From: Verrucomicrobiia bacterium
GTDB taxonomy: Bacteria; Verrucomicrobiota; Verrucomicrobiia; Limisphaerales; UBA11358
Reading direction: 5' to 3'
DNA length: 36,140 nucleotides
Assembly (NCBI GenBank): GCA_025451535.1
Contig: JANWKE010000071.1
Coordinates: forward strand, 1-36,140
Each line of letters starts with the position of its first letter. Within the stretch, counting starts at the first letter, position 1. The translations under genes and the position numbers were made by a program. Below the pieces are notes generated by a model, which saw nothing but the letters and a program-made list of their open reading frames with translations, ran no database searches and was not told where the DNA came from. Below are positions 11,062-14,662 of this stretch, piece by piece.

Positions 11062-11523
11062 GTGAGCAAAAAGGAATCGCCATCGGAAACCGCCAGATTC
11101 CTGGTCATCGGCTACGGCAACCTGTTGCGTTGCGACGATGGTGTCGGGCCGAGGGTCGCCGAAGTCGTCGAGGCGCTCCGGTTGCCTGGCGTGCACACGC
11201 TGATTAGCCAGCAGCTTTCGCCCGAACACGCCGAGCCGATTTCCCGGGCGTGCACGGTGATTTTTGTGGATGCCGCCGTGGATGCGCCCACCGAAGTACA
11301 ATTGCGCAAGCTCGAGCCCGGCCAGACGTCCCAGCTTATGGCGCATGCCGCCGACCCGCGCACAATGCTGGCCCTGGCCCGCGATGTCTTCGGTCATGCG
11401 CCCGAGGCCTGGTGGCTGACCATTCCCGCCGTGAAACTGGGTTTCGGCGACGACCTTTCGCCCGCCGCCCAACGCGGCTTTGAAAAAGCCGTCCAGGAAA
11501 TCAAAAACCTTTGCCGTCGGTAG
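11062..11523 (+). CDS. hoxW: Hydrogenase maturation protease, C-terminus altered by transposon insertion
   Basis: This 153-residue protein belongs to the HybD/HycI-type endopeptidase family (M52), which trims the large-subunit C-terminus after nickel insertion. Family marks are VIGYGNLLRCDDGVGPRVAE at the N-terminus, an acidic residue in VIFVDAAVD, and a His in the HAADPRTM region. The GTG start at 11062 lies 9 bp after the kinase stop. The last sense codon (CGG) and the TAG stop arise from the transposon's left repeat. Joining the sequence across the element restores an ending L-A-G-stop (TGA at 14671-14673), so the uninterrupted protein would have 155 residues. Only the extreme tail changed, so the enzyme is probably still active. 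Confidence 0.88.
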   Translation: MSKKESPSETARFLVIGYGNLLRCDDGVGPRVAEVVEALRLPGVHTLISQQLSPEHAEPISRACTVIFVDAAVDAPTEVQLRKLEPGQTSQLMAHAADPRTMLALARDVFGHAPEAWWLTIPAVKLGFGDDLSPAAQRGFEKAVQEIKNLCRR

Positions 11524-11536
11524 TGCCTTAATTTGA
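11511..11536 (+). repeat. Left target-site duplication (11511-11518) and left terminal inverted repeat (11519-11536)
   Basis: TTGCCGTC directly abuts GGTAGTGCCTTAATTTGA. The terminal repeat supplies the present stop codon (TAG, 11521-11523) of hoxW. Confidence 0.92.
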
Positions 11537-11540
11537 AATT

Positions 11541-11789
11541 TTAACCACGCCTTGATGCGTGTATGAAGGAATGAATCTCTGCTGGTGGAACTTTGCAATA
11601 TCCCAGAGTTGTGGCCACATACAGTTCTGAAAGTGATTTTCTGGTATCCAAAGTGATGATATGTGTGGTTCCCTTTTTCCTCCAAATTTCGACGCATTTT
11701 TTGCGTTCTTTGAAAGAATAGCCAATCTCGCGGAGTTTATTAACTAAACACTGGCGCGAAATCGTGTGCGCTTCTTCGTTGAATTTCAT
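11541..11789 (-). CDS. hicA: HicA-like mRNA interferase toxin
   Basis: This 82-residue protein has the small double-stranded-RNA-binding-like HicA pattern: a first helix (CLVNKLREIGYSFKER), then WRKKGTTHIIT, whose His43 matches the catalytic His of the G-S-H motif in HicA toxins. HicA toxins cleave mRNA and are neutralised by HicB. The start at 11789 (MKFNEEAHTISRQ) places the toxin fold at the N-terminus; a longer in-frame start at 11837 lies further inside hicB. It is the second gene of an antitoxin-first pair and overlaps hicB by about 50 bp, more than usual. It ends 4 bp from the element's left repeat. Assignment rests on pattern and context, and the similarity is modest. Confidence 0.6.
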   Translation of the reverse strand: MKFNEEAHTISRQCLVNKLREIGYSFKERKKCVEIWRKKGTTHIITLDTRKSLSELYVATTLGYCKVPPAEIHSFIHASRRG

Positions 11790-12066
11790 AGGGAACATCG
11801 AAGTGAACGCGAGACGACCGTGCTGGTAACGGGGCAATCAACTTCCAGCCATGTTCCCGTAGAAAAGTCTCCAGTTCTCCGGTTTCATGCAATTCAGAGA
11901 ATAACGCTTGTATGCAATTGTGAATTGAATCTATTAATTTCTCATAGGTTTCGCCCTCAGCCACGATTTGAAGCGGCGGGCATTGGGCAACCCAGTAATG
12001 AGAGCGCCTATCCTGGGCGACCACCCAAAACAACTTGGCTTGAATGGGGACAGTGATGGTTGCCAT
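11740..12066 (-). CDS. hicB: HicB-like antitoxin
   Basis: This 108-residue protein has the partial RNase H-like fold typical of HicB antitoxins: a strand region (LFWVVAQDRRSHYWVAQCPPL), then VAEGETYEKLIDSIHNCIQALFSEL, the usual pattern of 'A.G.T.eEA..ni.eAi'. The C-terminal 35 residues (after HGWKLIAPLP) show no clear DNA-binding motif, so autoregulation through a HicB ribbon-helix-helix is not evident. The ATG at 12066 begins MATITVPIQAKL. It lies upstream of the toxin gene and is divergent from the winged-helix-like gene. The pair may stabilise the element. Confidence 0.65.
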   Translation of the reverse strand: MATITVPIQAKLFWVVAQDRRSHYWVAQCPPLQIVAEGETYEKLIDSIHNCIQALFSELHETGELETFLREHGWKLIAPLPARSSRVHFDVPYEIQRRSAHDFAPVFS

Positions 12067-12324
12067 AAATCAGATCGGTTTAGATTCGTTCACCTACATG
12101 GAAACGCAACCAGTTGCGCTTCCTAAACAAATTTTCCCACAGGTTAAGGGGAGTCTCAACCTCAAATCGAATAAAATTTGATCCCAAAAATTCTTAAAAA
12201 AAGTGCTTGCCAAGTAAAGTTTGTGCCCCTTAAACTGAACTTTGTTCAGTTTAAGGGGCACAAAAAGTTCATTTTTGACACAAAAATACGTAAACAACAT
12301 TTTAAGTTTGTTTACGTTATTTTT
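12067..12324. promoter_or_regulatory. Divergent control region with a long perfect hairpin
   Basis: This 258-bp gap separates hicB from the rightward gene at 12325. It contains a perfect inverted repeat with 21-nt arms and a 3-nt loop (12220-12240 and 12244-12264; the arm begins TTTGTGCCCCTTAAACTG). A second dyad follows, with 10-nt arms ACGTAAACAA/TTGTTTACGT at 12288-12297 and 12308-12317, just before the start codon. The first could be a bidirectional terminator or a structured leader, although no strong T-run follows on either strand. The second could be an operator. Confidence 0.6.
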
Positions 12325-12759
12325 ATGTTGCGTCCGGTGCCTTCTTCGCTTATTGTCCTTGCTGTGAGTTCAAGCATAATCGTTGAAGTTCCGTATAATG
12401 AGGCCAGTCATCTTCGTGACGAATGGGAGCAACGGCTAATTGGTTTGCAGGAGGATGCCGCCAGACTGGAAAAAGCGATTGCCTCAATTGACGCTCAGTT
12501 GAGTGGTCAGATGCCACTTCCCCAATCGGTGTCCATACCAGCCAATAGCATTAAAACCAGCAAACGGAAAAAGGGTGAAAACCTCCGCACCATTAGGGCT
12601 TATTTACAGAGGGTTGGCGTTGCAGGAGCAACCGTTGCGGACATCAGTAAAAAAACAAACATCCACATTTCTTCCTGCATGGCAGTTCTGAAACGACATG
12701 ATGATATTTTCGCCAAAAGTGCCAATGATGGACTTTGGCGTATGCGGTTCAAAGCATGA
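12325..12759 (+). CDS. Hypothetical protein with coiled-coil and winged-helix-like C-terminus
   Basis: I do not recognise this 144-residue protein. After a short hydrophobic N-terminus it has a charged heptad-like helix (EASHLRDEWEQRLIGLQEDAARLEKAIASIDAQL), a basic linker (KTSKRKKGENLRTIRAYL), and a C-terminal segment (GATVADISKKTNIHISSCMAVLKRHDDIFAK, then GLWRM) shaped like a winged helix-turn-helix. A DNA-binding role inside the element is plausible. I placed the start at the ATG at 12325; the frame stays open back to 12178, but that stretch runs through the palindromic control region. The true start could also be further downstream, before the coiled coil. Confidence 0.55.
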   Translation: MLRPVPSSLIVLAVSSSIIVEVPYNEASHLRDEWEQRLIGLQEDAARLEKAIASIDAQLSGQMPLPQSVSIPANSIKTSKRKKGENLRTIRAYLQRVGVAGATVADISKKTNIHISSCMAVLKRHDDIFAKSANDGLWRMRFKA

Positions 12760-12771
12760 TGTAAAATCAAT

Positions 12772-12976
12772 AGAGCGCGGCGGGATATAGTCGCCGAACC
12801 CGTGCGGCGCGAGGACACAAAAGGCATCGGCCAGCAGGTGATAATGTCTGGAGAGACAACCTGCTGGCCGAGAGGCTAAATTGCGGGGAGCATTCCACCG
12901 GCTGGTGCCAGTAAGGAGGCGTACACCTCTAGGACGTTGCCCAAACAACGGGGTTCGATCCCCATGCTCTCCACCC
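12772..12976 (+). ncRNA. Candidate structured RNA with tRNA-like 3' domain, inside the mobile element
   Basis: This non-coding stretch folds strongly by eye. Near its 5' end CGGCG/CGCCG can pair around 12777-12796. Next comes a 13-bp perfect stem (12827-12839 with 12859-12871) capped by an inner TGTCT/AGACA hairpin. The 3' part is tRNA-like: a 9-bp closing stem (12885-12893 with 12964-12972, one G-T) encloses four hairpins, at 12896-12907, 12915-12930, 12935-12950 and 12951-12963. The last has the TTCGATC loop typical of a T-arm, and the end reads CTCCACCCA. A normal D-arm and a 7-nt anticodon loop are missing, and the T-stem has only 3 bp, so it is not an ordinary tRNA. It lies between two cargo genes. 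Strand is assigned from the tRNA-like end. No known RNA family was recognised. Confidence 0.5.
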
Positions 12977-12979
12977 AAT

Positions 12980-13168
12980 TTACGTAATACTGATACCATT
13001 TACGGCGATGTATGTCAAGGATTTCCGTATCCATTCGGACTGGCTTAATCCTGAGCGTTTTATAGCCTCATCTATTGGCTTCCGGTCGCCTTGGGTGAGG
13101 CGAATGGACATACCAGGGGCATAGACCTTGTTTTTTGGCAGTTTGGGTCTTCCAGCTTTTTTAGGCAT
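12980..13168 (-). CDS. Small ribbon-helix-helix (CopG/Arc-like) DNA-binding protein
   Basis: This 62-residue basic protein starts MPKKAGRPKLPKNK. It then has a short strand (GMSIRLTQGD) and two helices (KPIDEAIKRSG, LSQSEWIRKSLTYIA), the layout of ribbon-helix-helix repressors. It is divergent from the transposase gene, with 82 bp between the two starts. The shared region holds a repeated CGGTATTAC motif. A role as autorepressor and regulator of transposase expression is a reasonable inference, not shown. Its 3' end lies 3 bp from the tRNA-like structure. Confidence 0.7.
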   Translation of the reverse strand: MPKKAGRPKLPKNKVYAPGMSIRLTQGDRKPIDEAIKRSGLSQSEWIRKSLTYIAVNGISIT

Positions 13169-13250
13169 AAAATAAATACGGTATTACGAAAATAATCGTT
13201 GACATAATCCTATTTCGGTATTACCGTAATGTCAACATTAAATTTGATCT
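13169..13250. promoter_or_regulatory. Operator-like repeats and promoter region between the RHH gene and the transposase
   Basis: CGGTATTACG occurs at 13179-13188, and the fuller palindrome CGGTATTACCG at 13216-13226. An 8-bp inverted pair, GTTGACAT at 13198-13205 and ATGTCAAC at 13229-13236, encloses the second site. TTGACA at 13199-13204 fits a -35 box for the transposase; the matching -10 would lie on the palindrome (around 13222) and is a weak match. Binding of the ribbon-helix-helix protein here would block that promoter. Confidence 0.5.
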
Positions 13251-14087
13251 ATGGCAAACATACTTAAAACCGAAAAGAAAGTGGCCGTGATTTCCATGCT
13301 GGCCGAAGGCGCGAGCATCCGCGCCGTCGAGCGCATCACCGGCGTCAATCAAAACACGATTATGAGCCTCAATCGCCGCGTCGGAGATGCCTGCGCTAAA
13401 ATCATGGATGAGAAGATGCGCGGCTTGAATTGTCGGAATCTTGAAATTGATGAGATTTGGGGCTTTATCGGCGCGAAAAAGAAGACAGCGCAGCGTACGG
13501 GCCATTACGGCGATGTCTGGACGTTTATCGGTTTGGACAGTGATTCAAAACTGATTCCATCTTTCCTTGTCGGCAAGCGCGATGCTTACCACGCAAAAGC
13601 GTTCATGGCTGATCTGGCTTCCCGCATGTCAATGCGCGTCCAAGTGTCATCTGACGCGCTGGCGGCCTATCCTGACGCATTTGAGCGCAGTTTTGGCGCG
13701 GATGCGGATTACGGGCAGATTGTAAAAACCTACTCCGTTACCCCACTCGGTAACGCAGCAGCGCCCGCCGCCGTGCGGTATAGCCCGGCGGAAGTCGTGA
13801 AAGTTGAGCGAACGATTGTTTCGGGAATGCCAGATGTGGCACGGATTACCACCTCGCACATTGAAAAGCAGAATCATACGCTGCGGATGCATTGCCGCCG
13901 TCTGACTCGCCTCACAAACGCCTTCAGTAAGAAGTTTGAAAATTTTCAAGCTGCGGTCGCATTGAATTTCGCGTATTACAACTTCGTGAAAACCCATAAG
14001 GCAATCCGCATGACGCCAGCAATGGCCGCTGGCGTTGAAAATAGCCATTGGACGGTTGCTGAACTGGTTGAACGCTGTGGCGAATAA
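13251..14087 (+). CDS. IS1-family-type DDE transposase
   Basis: This 278-residue protein has an N-terminal helix-turn-helix (AVISMLAEGASIRAVERITG, then NQNTIMSLNRRVG). A DDE catalytic core follows, with candidate acidic residues in LEIDEIWGFIG, in VQVSSDALAAYPDAF, and in TSHIEKQNHTLRMHCRRLTR. The last motif and the following AFSKKFENFQAAVALNFAYYNF are typical of IS1-like transposases. It is a single uninterrupted frame, not the frameshifted insA-insB arrangement of IS1 itself. The start at 13251 is an ATG (ATGGCAAACATA). The next gene begins before its stop. The flanking repeats and 8-bp duplication agree with this family. Confidence 0.88.
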   Translation: MANILKTEKKVAVISMLAEGASIRAVERITGVNQNTIMSLNRRVGDACAKIMDEKMRGLNCRNLEIDEIWGFIGAKKKTAQRTGHYGDVWTFIGLDSDSKLIPSFLVGKRDAYHAKAFMADLASRMSMRVQVSSDALAAYPDAFERSFGADADYGQIVKTYSVTPLGNAAAPAAVRYSPAEVVKVERTIVSGMPDVARITTSHIEKQNHTLRMHCRRLTRLTNAFSKKFENFQAAVALNFAYYNFVKTHKAIRMTPAMAAGVENSHWTVAELVERCGE

Positions 14088-14391
14088 ACAGGATTATCTG
14101 GCACGATTGCAGACCGCGATAATGCAATTACACAATTGCGGCGCGATTTGGCGCAAGTCTGTCTTTGTGGAAGAAGTTTTTAGTGGCAAAGTGGTCTGGA
14201 ATGGTGAGGTTGAAGTTTTTGATCTGACGGGGCATCCGAAGGCAAAACGCGCCTATGGATGGTCGCATCCCGAAGGTGAGGACAATAAAGGCGAGCGGTT
14301 TGTCACCGTGCTGGAAATTCCGCCGGTTGTTTCACCGGAAACGGCAGTAAAAATGGCAATCTACAGCGATATTAAGAAAGGAAAATTATGA
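14077..14391 (+). CDS. Small conserved-type protein coupled to the transposase
   Basis: This 104-residue protein of unknown function starts at a GTG (14077) that overlaps the transposase stop by 11 bp. It shows a compact mixed strand pattern with WRKSVFVEEVFSGKVVWNGEVEVFDL, then GHPKAKRAYGWSH and ERFVTVLEIPPVVSPETAVKMAI. I have the impression that similar proteins accompany IS1-like transposases in other genomes, but cannot verify it here. No catalytic motif is evident. Its stop overlaps the next start as ATGA, so tnp and the two small genes form a coupled unit. Confidence 0.65.
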   Translation: MANKQDYLARLQTAIMQLHNCGAIWRKSVFVEEVFSGKVVWNGEVEVFDLTGHPKAKRAYGWSHPEGEDNKGERFVTVLEIPPVVSPETAVKMAIYSDIKKGKL

Positions 14392-14645
14392 AAATTACGG
14401 CGGTTGTAGATTATGGCGGCCTTCAAGTTTCACAAATATGGGATTTTATACCCAAAGATGAACAGAAGGGCGAACACGCAATGCTTATACTAAACTCTTT
14501 CGCAAATGGGGACATGGTTGGAATATCGCTAGCTACTTCCAAAATCAGGAAACAACACCGTTTAGGAGTGGCTGACTTTCGCTATATTGAACCTGTTTCA
14601 ACTGCGGATGCGGAGCTTATCCCGCGCGACGGAAAATCAAATTAA
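14388..14645 (+). CDS. Hypothetical small protein at the right end of the element
   Basis: I do not recognise this 85-residue protein (MKITAVVDYGGLQVSQIWDF...). It is hydrophilic, without signal or membrane segments. It starts within the preceding stop codon (ATGA overlap), and its own stop (TAA, 14643-14645) lies inside the right terminal repeat, so coding reaches the element's edge. Confidence 0.5.
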   Translation: MKITAVVDYGGLQVSQIWDFIPKDEQKGEHAMLILNSFANGDMVGISLATSKIRKQHRLGVADFRYIEPVSTADAELIPRDGKSN

Positions 14646-14662
14646 GGCACTACCTTGCCGTC
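14637..14662 (-). repeat. Right terminal inverted repeat (14637-14654) and right target-site duplication (14655-14662)
   Basis: TCAAATTAAGGCACTACC is the exact reverse complement of the left end and is followed directly by TTGCCGTC, the second copy of the 8-bp target duplication. Host sequence resumes afterwards, including the original hoxW stop (TGA at 14671-14673). Confidence 0.92.

Follow-up and report, generated by a model that had tools for sequence, protein, structure and literature searches.

Insertion sequences of the IS1 family encode an IS1-type DDE transposase, end in terminal inverted repeats (TIRs) of ~18-22 bp that start with GG, and generate target-site duplications (TSDs) of 8-9 bp. 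Classical IS1 elements are small, lack passengers, and have two overlapping open reading frames (ORFs) joined by frameshifting, though single-ORF members exist. Passages of PMC7609411 that draw on Mukai et al. (2017) describe a class of RNAs, termed allo-tRNAs, with a 12-bp acceptor branch in an 8/4 or 9/3 arrangement, some of which have a G3:U70 pair; 9/3 forms with ochre anticodons are included. The same passages report one pseudogene that overlaps a transposon-related ORF, and polycistrons of irregular tRNAs. Our analysis of a 36,140-nt stretch of contig JANWKE010000071.1 from a Verrucomicrobiia bacterium (the window) revealed an IS1-related element of 3,136 bp that contains a tRNA-like gene preceded by hairpins. 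Similar genes are found in other transposons of the same family, and most carry G3:U70 and a stop anticodon.

The window element is a genuine and complete passenger transposon, located between an upstream ORF and hypA (Table 1). A first-pass annotation, made from the sequence alone, had proposed perfect 18-bp terminal repeats and an exact 8-bp duplication, and a repeat scan reproduced both with coordinates (11511-14662) that are exact. Chance origin of these ends was considered and ruled out, since the TIR and TSD rule described below yields 43 distinct elements. The insertion interrupts the upstream ORF (11062-11523) at its 3' end, such that the final two bases of the last sense codon and the stop codon TAG (11521-11523), which falls within the left TIR, are derived from the element. 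Of the proposed site between hoxW and hypA, the hypA side was verified by domain searches, as was the name hypF, but the name hoxW is unsupported, as the upstream ORF has no Pfam match at 1e-5.

An empty site was also found in a related genome. The hypA loci of six relatives (L142-L147) were aligned to the joined flanks of the element. The locus whose HypA is 91% identical (L143) aligned at nearly full length across the junction, without an insert (score 407). Alignments of L145 and L144 span the junction but are weak and gapped (scores 79 and 36), and those of L142, L146, and L147 stop short of it; thus, the empty site is clear in one genome.

The RNA module of the element spans positions 12772-12973 and consists of hairpins followed by a cloverleaf. 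The structured RNA candidate of the first-pass annotation is thereby sharpened to a hairpin/tRNA-like module that recurs across the family. An alignment of six sequences supports 18 consensus pairs for hairpin 2, and 8 of these show double-sided change. The tRNA-like gene is of the 9/3 allo-tRNA type, forms all 12 pairs of the acceptor/T branch, and carries the AlaRS identity elements G3:U70 and A73. Its identification is based on this pairing, on a sub-threshold match to Rfam tRNA-Sec (RF01852; 22.8 bits, gathering score 47, E 0.28), on a strict tRNA descriptor, and on the family. The gene is the sole perfect match of the descriptor on both strands of the window, and shuffled versions of the element contain matches in 7 of 200 cases. 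Fold energy by itself does not set the gene apart (z -1.98). ARAGORN misses the gene, and calls no tmRNA in the window either. Rfam matches around positions 12132-12328 (rli51, microRNAs, and others) all score under the gathering score and were counted as chance.

Relatives of the transposase were collected by protein search (27 loci; 34 of 146 relatives) and by profile (6 of 387 genomes of the phylum at 1e-40, and 35 of 320 genomes of the order at 1e-60), and 40 places were fetched with flanks for delimitation. Elements were delimited by TIRs that start with GG and by a duplication of 8-9 bp with at most one mismatch. This rule produced 43 distinct elements, including that of the window, with lengths of 1,153-6,683 bp (median 2,945 bp). 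The 42 others each have a transposase match, and include copies with different 8-bp duplications, for which the first-pass annotation had proposed a search. The notion of a distinct compact unit with cargo holds in that the passenger genes are real, but a large size with passengers proves to be usual in the family. The duplication is perfect in 37 of the 43 elements, a number that is descriptive only because the rule itself required no more than one mismatch. TIRs of the TAATTT type, to which the window element belongs, bound 25 elements, and the remaining 18 are mostly more distant. A ribbon-helix-helix (RHH) gene is present in 17 of the 43.

Named hosts of the elements include Limisphaerales, Opitutales, Methylacidiphilaceae, other Verrucomicrobia, Acidobacteria (L022), Omnitrophota (L024), and Alphaproteobacteria (L027); those of the tRNA-bearing elements are Verrucomicrobia and one case in Acidobacteria. 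The window's own genome contains two further delimited elements, L002 (2,430 bp, with duplication GACGATTT) and the distant L126 (4,112 bp, transposase 37%). The same genome holds a decayed fragment of a relative (L003, G000:C188) with 80% identity to window positions 13861-14386. A search of plasmid and phage collections produced 16 plasmid records, with a best full-length match of 46.5%, and one phage at 31%. In the 321-kb genome of Brevundimonas phage vB_BpoS-Gurke, a transposase relative of 31% identity resides at 174800-175669, with no annotated feature beneath. A 1,579-bp element (L170/L232, 2825-4403) with perfect TIRs, an 8-bp duplication, and a tRNA-like gene has no transposase match, and is a non-autonomous relative.

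By using ARAGORN, the descriptor, one Rfam search, and inspection by eye, tRNA-like genes were detected in 18 of the 43 delimited elements, on scaffolds of the 7/5, 8/4, and 9/3 types. Fifteen are in the 25 TAATTT-type elements (including L123), and three are in others (L022, L120, and L134). For the 19 elements added last, detection is biased because the descriptor demanded the motif NTACA; ARAGORN supplied L120 and L134, and L123 was spotted by eye. Used on its own, ARAGORN made 7 calls in 128.5 kb of elements, whereas its 3 calls in 273 kb of flanking DNA are all ordinary host tRNAs; it called the tRNA of L002 with anticodon tta. The descriptor with NTACA, a filter picked after the first cases had been seen, gave 15 matches (in 14 elements) versus 1 in the same flanks, and a mean of 0.3 (maximum 1) on 20 dinucleotide shuffles. 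Without NTACA, 18 matches in elements compare with 8 in flanks, and with a mean of 2.65 (maximum 6) in shuffles. Double-sided changes are seen at 9 of 21 cloverleaf pairs in the alignment of the 7/5 sequences used for model R1 (below), and at 8 of 17 pairs in that of the 8/4 class, in which the acceptor is slightly misaligned. The 8/4 class has no consensus D-stem.

The search was also conducted from the RNA. Model R1, built from eight sequences of the 7/5 type, was run on the 320 genomes blind to the transposase, and produced 32 matches, 20 of which score at least 58.9 bits. In the fetched DNA, a TIR motif and/or a transposase match lies beside 18 of these 20; the two others are L227 and L221, the latter located close to the end of a contig. 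Seven of the 20 were among the sequences used to build the model; of the remaining 13, 11 qualify. By our arithmetic, an 8-kb locus should contain ~0.02 copies of the degenerate TIR motif. Seven of the 12 weaker matches were read, and comprise six ordinary tRNAs and one degenerate relative (L182/L229). R1 additionally detects tRNA-like genes at five transposase loci without both ends (L013, L019, L122, and, weakly, L129 at E 0.007 and L015 at E 0.04). Model R2, built from nine 8/4-class sequences, has 8 matches in the 320 genomes: five are model-building sequences, L250 corresponds to the L007 element, L251 looks like an ordinary tRNA, and L249 has neither TIR nor transposase in its 1.5-kb flanks. 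A tRNA-like gene at the distant transposase locus L115 was recognized by R2. R1, even with filters off, and R2 both fail to detect the window gene, which is of the 9/3 class.

The G3:U70 pair is the established alanine identity element for AlaRS. It is present in 15 of the 18 tRNA-like genes of delimited elements, and in 19 of the 22 transposase-linked genes for which both acceptor strands are available, where the extra four came from a model in which G3:U70 is invariant. Of 44 tRNAs found in the host, 30 were examined; two have G3:U70, both of them tRNA-Ala, and none has a UUA or CUA anticodon. The usual anticodon loop is the 7-nt sequence C-U-N-U-A-C-A, with variants. Anticodons of the 18 genes are UUA (12 cases), CUA (L007 and L010), GUA (the window), UUC (L123), AGU (L120), and ACU (L134). 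Anticodons for the stop codons UAA or UAG are therefore found in 14 of 18, on several scaffolds. The loop register is our own, set partly by eye, and matches ARAGORN in four of its five calls of this type (L008 was read as tac). Five UUA genes (L002, L005, L029, L030, and L107) are closely related, and the other UUA genes reside on different cloverleaves (7/5, 8/4, and 9/3).

These genes could be host tRNA genes that were captured by chance and are decaying as passengers. Stems are indeed damaged in some transposase-less copies (L222, L224, L228, and L229), and L120 and L134 resemble ordinary tRNAs. However, G3:U70 and a stop anticodon recur on different scaffolds, and acceptor and T-stems are fully paired in all 18 delimited cases, although the descriptor favors such pairing. 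We consider chance capture very unlikely.

Our best bet, to which we give an even chance, is that the small RNA gene, the most distinctive cargo of the family, encodes a tRNA that can be charged with alanine and that reads stop codons. From features read in the DNA itself, namely the mobility signature, the cloverleaf, G3:U70, the anticodon letters, and modular exchange, we infer transcription, processing, charging, decoding, regulation by two element proteins, and a benefit to the element as follows. After insertion at the 3' terminus of the ORF that precedes hypA, the RNA of the window element would be transcribed together with, or right after, the adjacent gene for a winged-helix (wHTH) protein. 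Host tRNA processing would remove the 5' part, and the tRNA-like part would be alanylated by host AlaRS through G3:U70 and A73, as the established role of this pair implies. In most tRNA-bearing members, alanine would then be inserted at UAA or UAG codons, such that the RNA functions as a mobile nonsense-suppressor tRNA. Regulation would probably come from the RHH protein, acting as a repressor at the transposase promoter, and from the wHTH protein, as a repressor of its own operon. A broader proposal, which we hold as tentative and rather doubtful, is a new mobile RNA-protein system in which IS1-type transposons spread alanine-charged nonsense-suppressor tRNAs as a swappable hairpin/tRNA module with a winged-helix partner. 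If that proposal is true, transposition could alter how the host decodes stop codons, or take this decoding hostage, and such transposons would be the natural source of many environmental allo-tRNAs.

Several observations weigh against a decoding role. Position 37 is C in most of the tRNA-like genes, anticodon stems are often mismatched, and only three of the 18 genes (L010, L012, and, by eye, L120) encode CCA. L022 (A3:U70), L123 (UUC), and the ordinary-looking Thr and Ser types of L120 and L134 break the pattern, and 25 of the 43 elements yielded no tRNA-like gene. An Rfam tRNA search of the window's own genome includes neither the window gene nor that of L002 among its 44 tRNAs. When TAA and TAG were read through in 14 tRNA-bearing elements, no convincing interrupted gene was recognized among the frames listed, and therefore no cis target for suppression is apparent. 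The window copy, whose anticodon is GUA in a loop of 6 nt, may be a decoder that has diverged or become inactive. According to passages in PMC7609411, activity in translation was demonstrated for some allo-tRNAs but not all, and some irregular ones were unusable by E. coli when tested.

Hairpins accompany many of the cloverleaves. A strong hairpin, identified by folding or by eye, lies just 5' of 9 of the 18 tRNA-like genes (L001, L008, L010, L012, L016, L021, L022, L120, and L123), and ten folded 5' regions have z values of -2.3 to -6.4. The window hairpin stretches recur at 80-81% identity in three genomes, where the cloverleaf that follows differs: 7/5 with UUA in L013 (G671), 8/4 with CUA in L238 (G070), and an additional hairpin, then 8/4 with UUA, in L239 (G650). 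Moreover, L010 and L012 have transposases that are 92% identical and tRNAs of different types. Because one hairpin module joins different cloverleaves, and because of the L010/L012 pair, we read these sequences as cargo exchange, with elements trading hairpin and tRNA domains. In L239 (1476-1892), two RNA 5' modules are arranged in tandem before a single tRNA-like gene. A second conserved block (AAGACCTAG.. to ..CTAGGC) is present between hairpin and tRNA in L008, L012, and L232, and is perhaps another irregular tRNA-like fold.

The frequency of these hairpins raises the possibility that the cloverleaf is a non-translating tRNA mimic that stabilizes or matures the upstream hairpin RNA via cutting by RNase P and RNase Z, for which mascRNA is a precedent. 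Regulation of transposition or host genes would then fall to the hairpin RNA, perhaps together with the wHTH protein, and stop anticodons would merely avoid competition with sense tRNAs. The double-sided changes in hairpin 2, the C37 residues, the weak anticodon stems, and the lack of a consensus D-stem in the 8/4 class are consistent with such a mimic. However, the minimal class (L002, L005, L029, L030, and L107) has a weak upstream hairpin by eye, where the upstream regions of L029 and L030 were partly read, and a mimic offers no obvious role for G3:U70 and A73. We regard this explanation as possible but doubtful.

The wHTH gene adjoins the RNA in the seven loci whose sequences were used to build its profile, and weakly in L134, L018, and L227. 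At L227 (4001-5022), a wHTH gene, a hairpin, and a G3:U70 tRNA-like gene with anticodon GAA occur with no transposon end seen nearby, such that the wHTH-RNA pair may exist outside of transposons. Both findings would fit a selfish addiction module, wherein a tRNA that causes readthrough or disturbs translation is held in check by a wHTH repressor. In contrast, 10 of the 18 tRNA-bearing elements (L002, L005, L006, L007, L010, L022, L029, L030, L107, and L120) have no wHTH match, and a weak match is present in L111, where no tRNA-like gene was found. An addiction module thus seems unlikely to us. An AlphaFold model of the wHTH protein (m3450a48997c0) combines a long helix with a confidently predicted winged helix, and has no match to PDB folds at E <= 0.001. 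Compact PDB matches near the top are to Z-alpha, a Z-DNA/Z-RNA-binding fold (TM 0.83 by target, E 0.03), and to other winged helices; in this model, the likeness may be that of winged helices in general.

By analogy, the tRNA-like genes might be decoys or spare tRNAs against tRNA-cleaving defense nucleases of hosts or rivals, as PMC12803027 terms mycobacterial tRNA arrays a putative antidefense system. As a rule, however, each element has a single unusual tRNA with a stop anticodon, and the seven proteins of the window element match no PADLOC family beyond one chance-level match (E 0.05). We find this role very unlikely.

The remaining features of the window element include several that may be regulatory (Table 1). 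The 21-bp inverted repeat resembles two TIR-like ends back to back, perhaps left over from a nested element, or may be a terminator that works in both directions. The palindrome 5' of the wHTH gene is a possible operator, and the two GGTATTAC copies are probably the RHH operator. The toxin-antitoxin pair called in the first-pass annotation is unconfirmed: the two small ORFs concerned reach the cut-off of no toxin or antitoxin family in Pfam or NCBIfam, and match none by name in PHROGs or PADLOC. The likeness of the RHH protein to RelB/VapB antitoxins is 16.7 bits (NCBIfam cut-off 50). For the ~105-aa gene, Pfam gave no notable match. The transposase, described earlier as IS1-like, exceeds the Pfam cut-off but is below that of the NCBIfam IS1 equivalog NF033558 (68.8 bits, cut-off 100).

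Table 1. Features of the window element, by position in the window
Feature	Position	Strand	Evidence or remark
Left target duplication, TTGCCGTC (8 bp)	11511..11518	.	sequence read
Left TIR, GGTAGTGCCTTAATTTGA	11519..11536	+	18/18 complementary with right copy (repeat scan)
Small ORF, the toxin of the first-pass annotation	11541..11789	-	listed ORF extends to 11837, internal ATG at 11789; no notable family match
Small ORF overlapping the preceding one	11740..12066	-	weak DUF1902 (17.4 bits, cut-off 22); PHROG of unknown function (21.7 bits)
Perfect 21-bp inverted repeat, 3-nt spacer (TTTGTGCCCCTTAAACTGAAC)	12220..12264	.	repeat scan; TIR likeness by eye
Palindrome directly 5' of wHTH gene	12282..12323	.	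repeat scan, arms 88% complementary
Coiled-coil + winged-helix (wHTH) protein gene	12325..12759	+	AlphaFold (AF2): helix 24-59, winged helix 85-140
First hairpin region, conserved GCCGAACC stretch	12772..12812	+	no consensus pairing found
Hairpin 2: 13-bp outer stem, 5-nt bulge GATAA, inner stem	12827..12871	+	folding and covariation
tRNA-like gene: 9-bp acceptor, G3:U70, 3-bp T-stem, TTCGATC T-loop, long variable arm, A73	12885..12973	+	pairing, descriptor
Anticodon arm GGAGG-CGTACA-CCTCT, 6-nt loop, GUA	12915..12930	+	pairing
RHH gene, NikA-like	12980..13168	-	27.4 bits, cut-off 27; tail to tail with tRNA-like gene
Divergent promoter region of RHH and transposase genes, two GGTATTAC copies	13169..13250	.	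sequence and repeat scan
IS1-type DDE transposase, 278 aa, single ORF	13251..14087	+	Pfam DDE_Tnp_IS1 (PF03400), 31.2 bits, cut-off 24.1
Family-specific ~105-aa gene, overlaps transposase stop	14077..14391	+	profile matches in loci of 25/43 elements
85-aa ORF, function unassigned	14388..14645	+	ORF list, Pfam scan
Right TIR	14637..14654	-	repeat scan
Right target duplication, identical TTGCCGTC	14655..14662	.	sequence read

The window element resembles IS1 in its DDE transposase, as judged by Pfam, its perfect 18-bp TIRs, and its 8-bp TSD. It departs from classical IS1 in that the transposase is one intact ORF rather than two joined by a frameshift, and in that elements of the family measure 1.15-6.7 kb and carry passengers, often the 105-aa and RHH genes. 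The score under the IS1 equivalog, despite the Pfam match, is a further difference.

The 8/4 class shares G3:U70 and the lack of a consensus D-stem with the tRNA-like domain of tmRNA, and the Rfam tmRNA model gives L010 a score of 34.8 bits. However, the family RNA has no mRNA-like domain or tag, and in the window cloverleaf a short anticodon arm takes that position. We rejected tmRNA membership for the 8/4 class, because host tRNA-Ala genes reach 40 bits with the same model and the L010 score is therefore not diagnostic. Mobile tRNA cargo is also known from the tRNA arrays of mycobacterial genomes, plasmids, and phages, which are described as holding many tRNAs, whereas the family typically has one hairpin-linked, stop-anticodon cloverleaf per small transposon.

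A further likeness is to allo-tRNAs, given the 9/3 form with G3:U70 and A73 in the window and the 8/4 and 9/3 forms in the family. In contrast to allo-tRNAs, the family copies reside inside delimited transposons, are often joined to a swappable hairpin module, mostly have the alanine pair and stop anticodons, and include a 7/5 class. Passenger transposons and allo-tRNAs are known separately. Among the papers listed in literature searches, titles and the beginnings of abstracts revealed no report of IS1-type transposons with tRNA genes, though an earlier mention is possible. The puzzling allo-tRNAs of soil bacteria gain a defined mobile home in delimited transposons of one family, and how a stop-reading alanine tRNA would benefit a transposon becomes a directly testable question.

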